The notes below the pieces were generated by a model, which was not told the DNA's origin, made no database searches, and saw only the letters and a list, made by a program, of their open reading frames with translations. Source: a bacterium (GTDB taxonomy: Bacteria; Vulcanimicrobiota; Vulcanimicrobiia; Vulcanimicrobiales; SCRA01). From it: DNA of 29,265 nucleotides. Location: contig SCRI01000021.1 of assembly GCA_004298675.1 (NCBI GenBank), positions 1 to 29,265 of the forward strand, given 5' to 3'. Below, piece by piece: positions 21,032 through 26,495 of this stretch (its first letter is position 1; every line of letters starts with the position of its first letter). The position numbers and the translations under genes are program-made.

Positions 21032-22876
21032 CTACCTCGTCGAGATTTCGAGCTCGTAGGTGCGTCGCGCCGCGGGGTAGCCGTAGACGGTTGCGTAGCC
21101 GTCGTTGCCCAGGTTGCGCGCGCGCAGCGTCAGCAGAGCGTCGCGCGTCAGGTGCATACGCAGGTAGGCGTCGACGGTGGTGTACGAGTCGATCGGCGGC
21201 GCCATGCCGGTCGAAGTGGTGAAGTAGTCGATGTGCGGCCCCACGATCTGCGCGCGAATGCCGAAGGCGGGGGCGTTGCCCACGAAGGGGCGCTCGATCC
21301 CCAGCGACACCTGCAGGACCGGCTCGAAGCGCAGGCGCGCCGCAGCGGCGCCCGGTGAGGTGTCGAGCGCGCGATAGAGATCGGTCGCATCGAGTCGCAC
21401 GACGAAGGCGTTGAACGGCTTCGTCCGTACGCTAGCGGTCAGTCCGTCGATCTCGGCGTGCTGGACGTTCTGCGGGACGAAGTTCTGGTCGAGCTGGATG
21501 AGATCGTTGGCGTGGCGGCCGAACCACCCCAGCGAAGCTCCGCCAAGCAGTTGCGGCGCCTCGAGCGTGACGTCGGCGTTGCGCGAGTGTTCCGGGCGCA
21601 GCGCGGGATTGGAGAAGCCTGGATAGTACAGGTCGATCAGCGTCGGTACGCGGAACGATTCGCCGAGGTTTGCGGCCAGGCGCAGCGAACCGACCGGCAT
21701 CAACGCGCCGGCCTCCGGCGCCACGATGCCGCCGTTGGGGGTGTCGTGCTCACCGCGTAGGCCCGCGAACAGGCGCGTGCCTCCGCCCAGCGTCCAGCTC
21801 TGTTGCGCGTACGCTCCTACCTGCGAGGCGCGCGCGGTGAACTGAGGGGGCGTGGGAGGGATCGCGCCGGCGCCGAGATCTTCGAGCATGCTCTCGCGCG
21901 CGATGTCCAGACCGGTCACGAGCGTGGTACGCGCTCCATCGATCACGTCTCTGATGGCGACCTGCGCGCGTCCGTCGTACGTCGCGCTCTCACCTCCGAA
22001 CGCGGGGTCGCGGTAGGGCAGCGCTTGGCGCGATCCGGAGAGCGTGACGGAGAGCAGCGAGTGCGCGCCGGCGCGCTGCGCCTCCACGTGCCCTTCGTCG
22101 AACGAAGTCAGCTGACGAGCTTGCGACGAAGGGAAACTCAGCGAGCCGGGGACGCCGATCGAGACGGCGCTGCTGCCCAGCGAGCCGCGCAGCCGCCACA
22201 GTCCCGCACGCGGTGTCTCGTACGAGAGTCGCATGGCGGTAGACTGCGCGTCGTCGTTGCTGCGCGTACCGGCCGGAAAGCCGTCCAGCGCGGGATACGG
22301 ATAGTCGTTGACGGCGAGACGCCGCTCGAGGACGAGACCCAAGTGCCCGTCGCCGATGGCCGCACGCAGATCCCTTGCCCCAAACGAGCCGGTAGAGGCA
22401 GCGGCGTAGGTTCCACGCGGGACGTCGGTGATGATGTTGATCACGCCGCCGACTGCTGCCGTGCCGTAGAGCGTGGAGACGCCGCCTTCGACCACCTCGA
22501 TACGCGAGACGCCGGAGGTGGAGAGTGTGCCGAGATCGAGCACGCCGTTGGAGGCCGTGGCGATGGGCGTGCCGTCCAGCAGCACGAGCGTCTGAGCCGC
22601 GCTCGCGCCGCGGACGCCGACCGTCGATTGCGCACCGAAGGGCCCGTAGCTGGTGATGTCGATGCCCGGGAGTCCGCGCAGCGCTTCGGCGACGGAGCGA
22701 TCGCCGCGTGCCTCCATCTGGGCGCGCGTTACGACGAACGTCGGGCGGCTGGTCTGGTCGATGGGCTCGGCGCGGCGGTCGCTCGTGACGATCGTCTCGA
22801 TGACCTTGAGCGGAGTCGCTGCGGGGGATGGCGAGGGAGTGGCCGCGAGGACCGCGGCTAGCATGAAGGGATACAT
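21032..22876 (-). CDS. btuB: TonB-dependent outer-membrane receptor, BtuB-like (cobamide uptake)
   Basis: Outer-membrane gated beta-barrel of 614 residues. The ATG at 22876 is preceded by AAGGAAGGA and starts a short signal peptide (MYPFMLAAVLAATPSPSPA). A TonB-box-like ETIVTSDRR follows. The plug domain shows VAEALRGLPGIDITSYG, GVRGASAAQTLVLLDGTPI, and VEGGVSTLYGTAAVGGVINI. The rest is a beta-barrel of alternating hydrophobic strands. It ends YELEISTR, without the C-terminal aromatic residue usual in such barrels. A cobalamin riboswitch immediately upstream makes cobamide the likely ligand. It leads the btuB-cobT-cobS operon. Confidence 0.92.
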   Translation of the reverse strand: MYPFMLAAVLAATPSPSPAATPLKVIETIVTSDRRAEPIDQTSRPTFVVTRAQMEARGDRSVAEALRGLPGIDITSYGPFGAQSTVGVRGASAAQTLVLLDGTPIATASNGVLDLGTLSTSGVSRIEVVEGGVSTLYGTAAVGGVINIITDVPRGTYAAASTGSFGARDLRAAIGDGHLGLVLERRLAVNDYPYPALDGFPAGTRSNDDAQSTAMRLSYETPRAGLWRLRGSLGSSAVSIGVPGSLSFPSSQARQLTSFDEGHVEAQRAGAHSLLSVTLSGSRQALPYRDPAFGGESATYDGRAQVAIRDVIDGARTTLVTGLDIARESMLEDLGAGAIPPTPPQFTARASQVGAYAQQSWTLGGGTRLFAGLRGEHDTPNGGIVAPEAGALMPVGSLRLAANLGESFRVPTLIDLYYPGFSNPALRPEHSRNADVTLEAPQLLGGASLGWFGRHANDLIQLDQNFVPQNVQHAEIDGLTASVRTKPFNAFVVRLDATDLYRALDTSPGAAAARLRFEPVLQVSLGIERPFVGNAPAFGIRAQIVGPHIDYFTTSTGMAPPIDSYTTVDAYLRMHLTRDALLTLRARNLGNDGYATVYGYPAARRTYELEISTR

Positions 22877-22917
22877 AGTCCTTCCTTTGCGCGAGGAACG
22901 AGCGTTATCAAAGCTCC

Positions 22918-23066
22918 CGCGTGGTATCCTGACTCGCGGATCGATGTCTTGTGCCGCGGCCTTCCCGCGCATATCATGCGCAGTGGCGATGCGGCGACTC
23001 CCCGCTTACAGTGGCGCGACCGTCTCGGCATTGCACCGAGTTCCCACGCTTCGAGCCGGACCCAGC
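22918..23066 (-). promoter_or_regulatory. Cobalamin riboswitch controlling btuB-cobT-cobS
   Basis: Read on the minus strand, the leader shows the hallmark blocks in the right order: GGGAAC, then the P5 hairpin CTCGG/CCGAG enclosing GGTGCAATGCC (23024-23040 on the plus strand), then GCGCCACTGTAAGCGGGGAG (22998-23017), and finally GAGTCAGGATACC (22923-22935). The aptamer ends about 45 bases before the btuB ATG. Downstream, CTTTG at 22909-22913 can pair with CAAAG at 22885-22889 beside the ribosome site, a possible translational switch. The 5' boundary is approximate. Repression of the operon by cobamide is inferred from the class. Confidence 0.93.
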
Positions 23067-23075
23067 AATTCGTGT

Positions 23076-23103
23076 CGCAGGCGGCCCCTCCTCTCGCGTG
23101 CAA
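23076..23103 (+). repeat. Copy 1 of a 28-nt element, 11 nt before the btuF1 ATG
   Basis: The element reads CGCAGGCGG, three variable bases, then CTCCTCTCGCGTGCAA. It matches copy 2 at 25366-25393 at 25 of 28 positions without gaps. It lies outside the riboswitch aptamer, in the gap between divergent btuB and btuF1, and ends exactly 11 bases before the btuF1 start. Function unknown; it could be an operator or an mRNA leader element. Confidence 0.7.
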
Positions 23104-23114
23104 CTTCAGCGGCG

Positions 23115-23963
23115 ATGAAACGGATGGTGGTCCTGGCCGCGGCGCTCGCCTGTGCGATCGCCGGCTGTGCCCGCCCGGCGCCCGCGCCGGGCGTCTACGC
23201 GGGCGAGCAGCACAAACGCATCGTCTCGCTCGCGCCTTCGCTCACCGAGGAGCTCTTCGCCATCGGCGCGGGCGGCCAGGTGGCCGGCACGTCGGCCTAC
23301 TCGAACTACCCCGCGCAGGCGCGCGCGCTGCCCGTGATTGACGCCGCGTCGTGGATCAACCTGGAGAAGATCCTCGCGTTGCGACCGGATTTCGTGGTGG
23401 GGCTCCCTTCCGATGCGTCCCGCACGCGCGGCTTGGAGCGTGCCAAGGTTCCGGCGTTCCTGATGAAGGACGACCGCTACGATGATATCTATGCCACGCT
23501 CGACGAGTTGGGCGTGCTCACCGGGCGTATCGACGCCGCGGGGCAAGTGGTGCAGCGCCTGCGCTCGCGCGTCGCGACGTTGCGCAAGCAAAGCGCGGCG
23601 TTTCGCGTGCACCCGCGGATCTTCGTGGTGCTCGACGTTTCGCCGATCTATACCGTTGGCCGCGGCTCGTACATCGACTCGTTGTTGACCATGGCCGGCG
23701 CGCGCAACGTCGTGCAGAGCGGACTGCCTTATCCCAACTACTCCGCGGAACGTCTGTTGTCCGATCAGCCCGATGCCCTGATCGTGGCCGGGGAAGTGAA
23801 GCTGAAGCCATTGCTCGCACGTCCGCCGTGGAGCGATCTAAGCGCCGTGCGCCGGGGGCGCGTCTACCAGGTGCCGCCGGACTTGGGGCTCGAGGTGCCG
23901 GGGCCGCGCGTGGCCATGGGGCTAGCGTGGCTGGTTCGGGTGGTGGAGCGCTTGCAGTCGTGA
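23115..23963 (+). CDS. btuF: BtuF-like cobamide-binding lipoprotein (copy 1)
   Basis: Predicted periplasmic substrate-binding protein for cobamide ABC import, 282 residues. The N-terminal lipoprotein signal MKRMVVLAAALACAIAGC has an IAGC lipobox. The mature part starts with the BtuF/FepB-like hallmark RIVSLAPSLTEELFAIGAG, then VIDAASWINLEKILALRPDFVV, VVLDVSPIYTVGRGSYIDSLL, and WSDLSAVRRGRVYQVPPD. An ATG at 23124 is an alternative start; neither has a clear Shine-Dalgarno, unlike most neighbours. The stop overlaps the GTG of cobC (GTGA). It is divergent from the riboswitch-controlled btuB operon and should serve the BtuC/BtuD-type transporter encoded 8-9 kb to the left. Confidence 0.9.
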   Translation: MKRMVVLAAALACAIAGCARPAPAPGVYAGEQHKRIVSLAPSLTEELFAIGAGGQVAGTSAYSNYPAQARALPVIDAASWINLEKILALRPDFVVGLPSDASRTRGLERAKVPAFLMKDDRYDDIYATLDELGVLTGRIDAAGQVVQRLRSRVATLRKQSAAFRVHPRIFVVLDVSPIYTVGRGSYIDSLLTMAGARNVVQSGLPYPNYSAERLLSDQPDALIVAGEVKLKPLLARPPWSDLSAVRRGRVYQVPPDLGLEVPGPRVAMGLAWLVRVVERLQS

Positions 23964-24586
23964 GGATCGTCGTCGTACGCCACGGTATCACCGAATGGAA
24001 TGCCGCGCGGCGTTTTCAGGGACAGACGGACATCGCACTCTCCGAGGTGGGGCGGTTGCAGGCCCGCTCTGTCGGCAAACGACTGCACGCGGAGCGCTTC
24101 CAACTCTGCGTCGCCAGCGACCTCCAGCGCACGCGCGAGACCGCCGAGCGGATTCTCGCGGAGATCGCTCATCCGCCCACGCTGCATCTGGAACCCGAGC
24201 TGCGCGAGATGAACTTCGGTGTCTGGGAGGGTCTGACGTTCGACGAGGTTGCCGCGCGTTGGCCCGACGAGGCCAGCAACTTTCATCACCACTCGCTGCT
24301 GGCGCCCCCTGGGGGCGAAACGTGGGCGCAGTTCGATGCGCGCGTCACGCGCGGTTTCGAGCGCCACCGTGCGCGGGTGGATTCCGGTGCCGCACTGCTG
24401 CTGGTGGTTCACGGAGGCGTGATCCATGCGCTCGTGCGGCGCTTGATGAACCTCGGCGACCGTCCCGCGCCGATCCACGTCGATCCCGCCGGCGTCACGG
24501 AGATCGAGACGGAAGGCGAGACAGCGTGGATGCGGCTCCTGAACGATCGTTGCCATCTCGAAGGGCTCTCGAAGGCGGATTCCTAA
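23960..24586 (+). CDS. cobC: Histidine phosphatase, probable alpha-ribazole phosphatase CobC
   Basis: Cytoplasmic phosphatase of the histidine phosphatase (phosphoglycerate mutase-like) superfamily, 208 residues. The phospho-accepting His is in VVVRHGITEWN (His8). FQGQTDIALSEVGRLQA, SDLQRTRETAERIL, LREMNFGVWEGLTF and the second catalytic His in LLVVHGGVIHALV complete the pattern. The GTG at 23960 overlaps the btuF1 stop; the frame is open upstream but is not needed. Many members are generic phosphatases. The alpha-ribazole-5'-phosphate role is inferred from its operon with btuF and nearby cobS, cobT and cobU. Its stop overlaps the convergent btuF2 stop. Confidence 0.87.
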   Translation: MRIVVVRHGITEWNAARRFQGQTDIALSEVGRLQARSVGKRLHAERFQLCVASDLQRTRETAERILAEIAHPPTLHLEPELREMNFGVWEGLTFDEVAARWPDEASNFHHHSLLAPPGGETWAQFDARVTRGFERHRARVDSGAALLLVVHGGVIHALVRRLMNLGDRPAPIHVDPAGVTEIETEGETAWMRLLNDRCHLEGLSKADS

Positions 24587-25347
24587 CGCCATTCGTCGAG
24601 CGCGCGCAGGAGGTGTTCGAGAAGTGCGGCGACGTGCGGGCCGGGGACGAGATCGTCTTGCAGATGGACGACGCGGCCTGCTCGCACGGCTTGGAGCAGA
24701 TTCCACGGCGCGCTGCGCGGATCGATCTGGGCATCCTTCGATACGATGAGGATGTCGGGGTGCGCGCCGGCGAGTCGCTCGGCGGAATAGGGCGTCCAAG
24801 GTAACGGGGATGCGGCCGTGTTCTCGAGGTTGGCAAGCCGCAGCAACTCGTCGACGAAGGATCCGCGCCCGGCCGTGTAGATGGGCGCGGTCGCGACGAC
24901 GACGAAGACACGCAGGCGTCTGCGCTGCGCGGCCGCTCGCTCGAGGCGCTGGAGCTCCATGCCGAGCCGGCGGACCAGAGCCGCGGCGCGTGGTTCCGTG
25001 CCGGTGAGCCGCCCGAGGCGCCGCAGCGTGGCGAAGTCTTGCGCGAGGGTGTCCGACGAAAGTATCTCACTGCGCACCCCGGCGCGCTCGAGCGCGGTAA
25101 GCGTGGTCGCCTCGAGCGGTACTCCGACGACGAGGTCGGGGCGCAGTGAGAGGATGCGCTCAGGGGTCGCGTCGAGCATGCTGCCAACCTGCGGCAAGCG
25201 CCGCGCTTGCGGCAAGCGTGCCGAGTAGCGGTCGACGGCGATCACGCGCGCGCCGGCGCCGATTGCGAAGAGGTCCTCGGTGAGCGACGGCGCGAGTGAG
25301 ATGATGCGCTGCGCCTCCAGAACCGCCGCGAGCAAGACGCCCAACAT
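24583..25347 (-). CDS. BtuF-like cobamide-binding protein (copy 2)
   Basis: Second BtuF-type substrate-binding protein, 254 residues from the ATG at 25347. It shares with copy 1 the blocks RIISLAPSLTEDLFAIGAGA, ILSLRPDLVVGVP, VFVVVATAPIYTAGRGSFVDELL, and PYSAERLAGAHPDILIV. The start is uncertain. The ATG gives only a very short hydrophobic lead (MLGVLLAAVLEA) with no positive charge. A GTG at 25413 adds an n-region with Arg-Arg just before that core and would make a better signal peptide, but it would overlap the start of divergent cobU. It may bind a different corrinoid from copy 1; that is inference. It converges on cobC with a three-base overlap. Confidence 0.87.
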   Translation of the reverse strand: MLGVLLAAVLEAQRIISLAPSLTEDLFAIGAGARVIAVDRYSARLPQARRLPQVGSMLDATPERILSLRPDLVVGVPLEATTLTALERAGVRSEILSSDTLAQDFATLRRLGRLTGTEPRAAALVRRLGMELQRLERAAAQRRRLRVFVVVATAPIYTAGRGSFVDELLRLANLENTAASPLPWTPYSAERLAGAHPDILIVSKDAQIDPRSAPWNLLQAVRAGRVVHLQDDLVPGPHVAALLEHLLRALDEWR

Positions 25348-25365
25348 GCCGCGCCGTGTTCCTGC

Positions 25366-25393
25366 CGCAGGCGGAAGCTCCTCTCGCGTGCAA
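25366..25393 (+). repeat. Copy 2 of the 28-nt element, 11 nt before the cobU ATG
   Basis: Matches copy 1 (23076-23103) at 25 of 28 bases. The only differences are the three consecutive bases at 25375-25377 (AAG here, CCC in copy 1). It again lies between divergent genes (btuF2 and cobU) and again ends exactly 11 bases before the plus-strand ATG. No riboswitch core is present here. Confidence 0.7.
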
Positions 25394-25416
25394 GTGTTTG
25401 CAGCATGCTGCACTTG
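25391..25416 (+). promoter_or_regulatory. Inverted repeats enclosing the cobU start codon
   Basis: CAAGTG (25391-25396) and CACTTG (25411-25416) form a 6-bp inverted repeat. Inside it, TGCAGCATGCTGCA (25399-25412) is a perfect 14-base palindrome centred on the cobU ATG. GTGCA (25388-25392) with TGCAC (25409-25413) gives a competing pairing. The start codon could therefore be hidden in mRNA structure. No folding was computed. Confidence 0.4.
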
Positions 25417-25923
25417 ATCGTCGGCGGCGCGCGCAGCGGGAAGAGCCGTTATGCCGCCTCGCTCGTGGGAGCGGCGCAGGCAACCTACGTCGCCACCGCG
25501 ATGCGCTCGGACGATGTGGACTTCATGGCACGCATCGCGCGTCACCGTGAGGAGCGCCCAGCGTCGTGGATCACCGTCGAAGCGCCGCACGATCCCGCGC
25601 CCGCGGTGTTGCAGGCGGTGACGGCGTATGTGATCGTCGACTGCGCCACGCTCTGGCTGACCAATCTGATGTTGGCGCGTCCGACGGCCAGTGACGAAGA
25701 GCTCGAGCGCGTGGCCGACGTCGCAGTCGCGTGCTTCGCGCGAGCGGGACGCGTCCGCGAAGTGATCGTGGTGACCAACGAAGTCGGCGGCGGGATCGTG
25801 CCCGTGGATGCGCTGGCGCGGCGTTTCGTCGATCTGCAAGGCAGGGTGAACCAGCGGCTTGCGGAGGCGGCTGAGCGCGTCGTGCTCATGGTCGCGGGAA
25901 TTCCGGTGGAGGTAAAGCGTTGA
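25405..25923 (+). CDS. cobU: Adenosylcobinamide kinase / adenosylcobinamide-phosphate guanylyltransferase
   Basis: Bifunctional cytoplasmic enzyme that phosphorylates adenosylcobinamide and transfers GMP to it, 172 residues. P-loop GGARSGKS is at residues 7-14. RIARHREERPASWITVE carries His47, aligned with the guanylylated His46 of Salmonella CobU. DCATLWLTNL, VVTNEVGGGIVP and GRVNQRLAEAAERVVLM are the further family blocks. The ATG is set in inverted repeats and has no obvious Shine-Dalgarno. The stop overlaps the TTG start of a second CobU-like gene. It is divergent from btuF2. All key residues are intact, so it is the likely working CobU of the salvage route. Confidence 0.93.
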   Translation: MLHLIVGGARSGKSRYAASLVGAAQATYVATAMRSDDVDFMARIARHREERPASWITVEAPHDPAPAVLQAVTAYVIVDCATLWLTNLMLARPTASDEELERVADVAVACFARAGRVREVIVVTNEVGGGIVPVDALARRFVDLQGRVNQRLAEAAERVVLMVAGIPVEVKR

Positions 25924-26495
25924 AGAAGTTCGTGCTGGTCCTGGGCGGGGCACGCAGTGGAAAGAGCGAGTTCGCCGAGAAATTGGCGGCCTCCATCGGC
26001 GGTGGCGTCGTCTTCGTGGCTACGGGCTCGCCGGTGGACGAGGCACTACGGCTGCGCATCCAGCGCAATCGCGCGCGCCGCCCGCAGGCGTGGCGTACGC
26101 TGGAGGTGGGGACGAGTATCGGGCGCGCGCTGGCCAAAGACGCGCCCGCCGAGCCGATCGTGCTGCTCGATTCGCTCTCCGGAGCCATCGCCAACGTCGT
26201 GCTGCGATCCCGCTCGCGCGAGAAGTTGTCCGAGCGTGCCGATCCCGACGTGGAACAGAAGGTCGACGCCGAAGTCGCGGGTCTGCTCAATTGGTATGGG
26301 CGCAACGAGAAGACGCTGATCGTGGTGAGCGACGAGCTCTCGATGGGGGCGACGACGGCGCTGCCCAGTGTCGGCGCCTACGCCGAGCTCAACGGGCAGA
26401 CCAATCGCCGCTTGGCCGACGTGGCCGATGAAGTGTTTCTGATGATCGCGGGCATTCCGCTCAACCTCAAGGAGTCGCCCAAGGGGCTGCTCTAG
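25920..26495 (+). CDS. CobU-like paralog with the guanylylated His replaced by Asn
   Basis: Second CobU-family protein, 191 residues, directly after cobU. The start is TTG, overlapping the cobU stop (TTGA). It is well supported by GGAGGT at 25908-25913 with a six-base spacer. P-loop GGARSGKS is kept (residues 9-16), and so is the scaffold RIQRNRARRPQAWRTLE, but the position of the GMP-accepting His is Asn50. The cobU block VTNEVGGGIVP becomes VSDELSMGATTALPS, whereas the C-terminal NRRLADVADEVFLMIAGIPL is still CobU-like. It probably retains nucleotide binding but not the classic guanylyltransferase mechanism. A kinase-only partner, or an enzyme on another substrate, is possible. Confidence 0.88.
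   Translation: MKKFVLVLGGARSGKSEFAEKLAASIGGGVVFVATGSPVDEALRLRIQRNRARRPQAWRTLEVGTSIGRALAKDAPAEPIVLLDSLSGAIANVVLRSRSREKLSERADPDVEQKVDAEVAGLLNWYGRNEKTLIVVSDELSMGATTALPSVGAYAELNGQTNRRLADVADEVFLMIAGIPLNLKESPKGLL

Follow-up and report, generated by a model that had tools for sequence, protein, structure and literature searches.

A conserved element shared by two divergent vitamin B12 gene pairs, one beside a cobalamin riboswitch and one without

Two divergent gaps between vitamin B12 genes carry copies of a 28-bp sequence that is a real, selected and shared control element. Across the order it keeps fixed distances to both a riboswitch and the gene on the opposite side, and it has been reused once without a riboswitch. 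We hold with moderate confidence, from sequence comparison, that the two copies represent a compact divergent promoter/operator, which a shared trans-acting protein would recognize at the DNA level. For bacterial B12 genes, the cobalamin riboswitch by itself is the usual explanation. No account of this element emerged from a literature search.

Results

Two copies of the element in the B12 locus

The window (the whole stretch analysed, 29,265 nt) contains a locus made up of btuB, btuF1, a phosphatase gene, btuF2, cobU1 and cobU2. The features of the two gaps are listed here by window position.

21032-22876, minus strand: btuB, TonB-dependent B12 receptor (Pfam plug and barrel; TIGR01779 below its cut-off)
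22904-23094, minus strand: cobalamin riboswitch of btuB, Rfam span (RF00174, 85.9 bits; aptamer core GGGAAC starts at 23045)
23069-23075, plus strand: left extension of E1, TTC-N4 (N4-GAA in the btuB sense), at the place where the third order-wide block (CAA/GTA) lies
23076-23103, plus strand: copy 1 of the element (E1), 28 bp, CGCAGGCGGCCCCTCCTCTCGCGTGCAA, built as CGCAGGCGG-CCC-CTCCTCTCGCGTGCAA; kept in congeners G001, G002 and G003
23115-23963, plus strand: btuF1, periplasmic B12-binding lipoprotein-like protein (PF01497; BtuF best match below cut-off), ATG 11 nt past E1
24583-25347, minus strand: btuF2, BtuF paralogue, 45% identical to btuF1
25359-25365, plus strand: left extension of E2, TTC-N4
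25366-25393, plus strand: copy 2 of the element (E2), 28 bp, CGCAGGCGGAAGCTCCTCTCGCGTGCAA, built as CGCAGGCGG-AAG-CTCCTCTCGCGTGCAA, in the btuF2/cobU1 divergent gap; also in G002
25405-25923, plus strand: cobU1 (PF02283 and NF004469 above cut-off), ATG 11 nt past E2

The original prediction, made from this sequence by itself, described a 28-nt repeat before btuF1 and cobU1, and that description was borne out. E1 and E2 are identical at 25 of 28 positions, the mismatches being three consecutive central bases (CCC and AAG), and exactly 11 bases separate E1 from the ATG at 23115 and E2 from the ATG at 25405. The spacers between each copy and its ATG differ in sequence, as had been said, and on reading the sequence we likewise saw no Shine-Dalgarno at either btuF1 or cobU1. 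Both gaps are divergent, also as claimed, but the first holds in addition the minus-strand btuB cobalamin riboswitch, which had been overlooked. The second gap measures 57 bp, since btuF2 starts at 25347. Read in the btuB sense (minus strand), E1 is TTGCACGCGAGAGGAG-GGG-CCGCCTGCG. When the left extensions are included, the likeness becomes a 35-nt repeat that begins at 23069 and 25359.

Dinucleotide shuffles of the window yielded no E1-type matches. In the 3.03-Mb genome E1 and E2 were the sole places found at three or fewer mismatches (reversed control, 0); a multi-copy genomic repeat was rejected because the genome holds these two copies only. Two weaker sites elsewhere in the genome, L009 and L010, were both taken as chance. 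The first (CTCCGCTCGCGTGCAA) falls within a flagellar flgF/flgG-like leader and looks like a sigma-28-like promoter spacer: a 16-nt part with one mismatch (L009, 1501-1516) is, in reverse sense, the 15-nt spacer of TAAA-N15-GCCGATAC, which is probably a coincidence. The second is located in a ribosomal-protein region.

The cobU1 and cobU2 genes are adjacent (25405-26495). The product of cobU1 scores above the NCBIfam cut-off; cobU2 reaches 142 where the cut-off is 161, starts with TTG and is the copy retained in all congeners. The btuF2-E2-cobU1 block (24583-25923) has a tail-to-tail overlap of about 4 nt with the phosphatase stop and a 4-nt overlap with cobU2.

Conservation within the genus

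Three congeners (G001, G002 and G003) were searched. Both copies are present in G002, the one genome besides this one that has E2, while G001 and G003 carry E1 only, with 1-2 changes. All six copies in the genus stand exactly 11 nt from an ATG. At both E1 and E2, G002 has the same 25 of 25 recognition bases as this genome, while the two genomes differ at 33% of fourfold-degenerate sites in btuF1 and at 44% in cobU1. Of the central triplet, two bases have changed in E2 and none in E1. An unchanged set of 25 bases around a variable centre is the pattern left by selection on a bipartite recognition site.

In G001 and G003 cobU2 directly follows the phosphatase gene, and therefore the whole btuF2-E2-cobU1 block is missing there, not E2 alone; no trace of it is left in either genome. 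The btuF1 of G003 is 89% identical to that of G002 and 85% identical to that of this genome. G003 is thus closer to G002, which calls for either a single loss in G003 or a transfer. The original prediction had counted the lack of further copies at B12 genes against itself: this genome does hold two places only, but each of the three congeners searched retains the element.

The core of the element across the order

The full-length element was found in this genus only: scanning 84,980 species gave no case outside it, and on this basis a genus-independent regulon was rejected. A shorter core, AGGA-N6-GCCTGC in the btuB sense, reaches further. We scanned 96 riboswitch leaders of the sister family (family 2) and found the core in 25, against 0.01 in shuffles. 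The core lies 44-52 nt upstream of the aptamer core in the sister family (58 nt in one case) and 47 nt upstream in this genus. The exact family-2 form, ACCAGGAA-N5-GCCTGC, occurs once per genome in 22 genomes, always at the riboswitch, and the reversed control gave 0. Looser blocks are present in most leaders, with AGGA 40-49 nt, GCC/CCT 30-39 nt and CAA/GTA 20-29 nt before the aptamer core; for AGGA, 85 non-redundant leaders gave 58 occurrences in the 40-49 bins and at most 7 in bins beyond 55. Similar blocks are found in some class-level relatives.

The core keeps an equally regular distance on its other side. A divergent start codon stands 20-24 nt from it in 20 of 25 non-redundant loci, with no other 5-nt bin exceeding 5; four of the remaining five loci show, by eye, an ATG or GTG at 20-23 nt in truncated sequences whose frame is not callable. 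The 11-nt rule is the genus version of this spacing, where 11 nt of spacer plus 11 nt of element beyond TCCT make 22. The divergent gene is usually btuF. At the motif-bearing loci L116, L118, L243 and L246 it is instead a TGEGKT P-loop gene, which may be CobB/CbiA-like to judge by its KxGPDYID motif, and the start-codon distance is the same with either gene. The distances to the aptamer core and to the divergent start are both constant, and therefore the element is fixed relative to both neighbours. Its assignment to btuF1 and cobU only, as originally proposed, is not supported, as the core keeps a set distance from the minus-strand btuB riboswitch throughout the order.

Toward the divergent start codon the genus has a fixed extension of its own, TTGCACGCGA, which is absent from family 2 and present in E2. 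E2 was thus probably copied from E1 within this lineage.

A riboswitch beside E1 and none beside E2

The RF00174 match beside E1, which E1 adjoins on the upstream side in the btuB sense, is the only cobalamin riboswitch in the genome; no RF00174 match was found in the btuF2/cobU1 gap, even at a relaxed threshold. Rfam draws E1 as a strand of P1. The helix by the aptamer core (23046-23049 with 22919-22922) is GCGU/ACGC here and ACGU/ACGU in G002 and G003, a compensatory change, and sister-family genomes have GTTTGCGC/GCGCAAAC at this helix. Because the helix next to the core covaries, the real aptamer ends short of E1, and the P1 assignment was ruled out, the covarying helix directly adjoining the core. 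The repeat is not itself an RF00174 riboswitch: E1 is outside the covarying helix and E2 has no match to the model.

Past the B12 box, btuB expression platforms across the order (L105, L113, L121 and others) share an almost invariant CCTCGCG, then AAGGAAAGG, then the start codon; CCTCGCG and AAGGAAAGG are probably the loop of a hairpin that sequesters the Shine-Dalgarno. In one phylum-level relative (L249, contig G130:C32) there are five cobalamin riboswitches, of which a single contig carries four. A divergent pair on G130:C32 is separated by about 28 bp (34640-34834, minus strand; 34862-35061, plus strand).

RNA-level and other explanations

The constant distance to the aptamer core would also be expected if the element were an RNA feature at the 5' end of the btuB riboswitch transcript, such as a short AGG/CCT hairpin or an anti-sequestering strand, with E2 as the remnant of a lost btuF2 riboswitch. 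CAGG/CCTG, AAGG/CCTT and GAGG/CCTC arms occur in other clades and could mean a btuB-leader hairpin, the flanking pair changing together in some of them (AAGG/CCTT, GAGG/CCTC). On reading the sequence, CGCGAGAGGA of E1 (btuB sense) could base-pair with UUCCUCGCG in the expression platform of btuB, and in some family-2 genomes (G004, G030) a riboswitch lies directly before btuF. We nevertheless consider this explanation unlikely. Over 26 loci the mean folding z score was about 0 on both strands, so that no stable conserved fold emerged, and AGGA had no consistent base-paired partner in the folded leaders. The AGG/CCT hairpin was rejected, as its flanking pairs match in 12 of 23 cases, near the chance rate, and in the genus the outer pair of the arms is G-G or A-G. 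E2 is conserved as strictly as E1 yet has no aptamer, and an RNA feature of the leader alone leaves the fixed distance to the divergent start unexplained.

Less probable again is an action in the plus-strand mRNA of btuF1 and cobU1, as a translation signal or a switch at a fixed distance from the start codon. The 11 nt to the ATG in six genus copies and the 20-24 nt from core to start across the order fit such a role, but the core also follows the minus-strand aptamer, and family-2 relatives carry an ordinary Shine-Dalgarno of the GGAAAG/GAAGG type between element and start. A TTCC/GGAA hairpin sequestering that site in the btuF leader of relatives was rejected, as its outer pairs extend it in only 4 of 15 loci (by eye). 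The suggestion that CTCCTC acts in mRNA, opposite a Shine-Dalgarno, is not supported: there is no fold signal on either strand, and most family-2 relatives read TTCCT at this place. A further alternative, that E2 arose recently from E1 by duplication or gene conversion and has no function, draws on there being two copies only, on the paralogy of btuF1 and btuF2 and on the absence of the btuF2-E2-cobU1 block from G001 and G003. It appears the least probable of all, as both copies are intact in two species at 33-44% fourfold divergence, and conversion would have homogenised the central bases of E2, which vary while the rest is constant.

Discussion

No RNA fold was favoured and E2 has no riboswitch; the element may therefore be best read as a protein-bound divergent promoter/operator of the btuB-btuF gap. 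The strongest argument for recognition at the DNA level is the conservation of E2 without any aptamer. The original suggestion is partly supported: cross-species conservation speaks for a shared, selected regulatory element in divergent B12 gaps, and the fixed start-codon distance extends far beyond this genome.

Under the promoter/operator reading, the element would be recognized either by a regulator or by RNA polymerase with a particular sigma factor. The btuB-sense blocks would occupy the -35 to -10 region of a promoter whose transcripts begin about 15 nt upstream of the aptamer core and immediately before the first helix: AGGA is 47 nt from that core, GCCT(GC) about 37 nt and CAA/GTA (GAA in the genus) about 25 nt. 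AGGA and CAA/GTA are spaced like -35 and -10 boxes, which would make the TTC-N4 extension of E1 a candidate -10 of the btuB promoter. The same layout at E2 would place the btuF2 transcription start within a few bases of its ATG. The element may be active in both directions. E2 presumably arose in this genus by copying of E1 into the btuF2-cobU1 gap, and btuF2 and cobU1 would then share the btuB-btuF1 promoter/operator without the riboswitch, as their gap has no aptamer. The sequence GGAA-N16-CGTA, seen at some family-2 sites, resembles ECF-type promoters, which is a lead only. No sigma-70-like promoter was seen in either gap on either strand, and this GC-rich lineage may use other sequences; a leaderless promoter signal (TANNNT near -12) was also not detected in 429 kb of the genome with crude gene calls. 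The dyad in the genus is weak, consisting of AGG-N8-CCT only, with a variable N3 centre at the two genome sites.

More tentatively, a lineage-specific regulator or sigma factor might tie B12 uptake (btuB, btuF) to salvage (cobU) as a second layer beside the riboswitch, and in this genus act also on a riboswitch-free pair. E1 and E2 offer a ready comparison for telling promoter/operator control apart from control by the riboswitch, and the element can serve as bait for finding its binding protein.

One of the closest known systems is the RF00174 riboswitch of btuB itself. E1 lies directly upstream of it at an order-wide constant distance; E1 is, however, outside the aptamer, and E2 is without one. 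Bacteria commonly have bidirectional promoters (PMC12825309, PMC10268837), and the gaps here resemble them: each is compact and divergent, with a single short element and a gene start close by on either side. The differences are that no sigma-70 hexamers were found, that the conserved sequence is longer and that it is specific to one gene pair. In Escherichia coli, btuB is controlled by the transcription factor GadX besides its riboswitch (PMC3050690). What would be alike is a second, protein-based layer on a riboswitch-controlled btuB, whereas the element described here is common to a second B12 gene pair.
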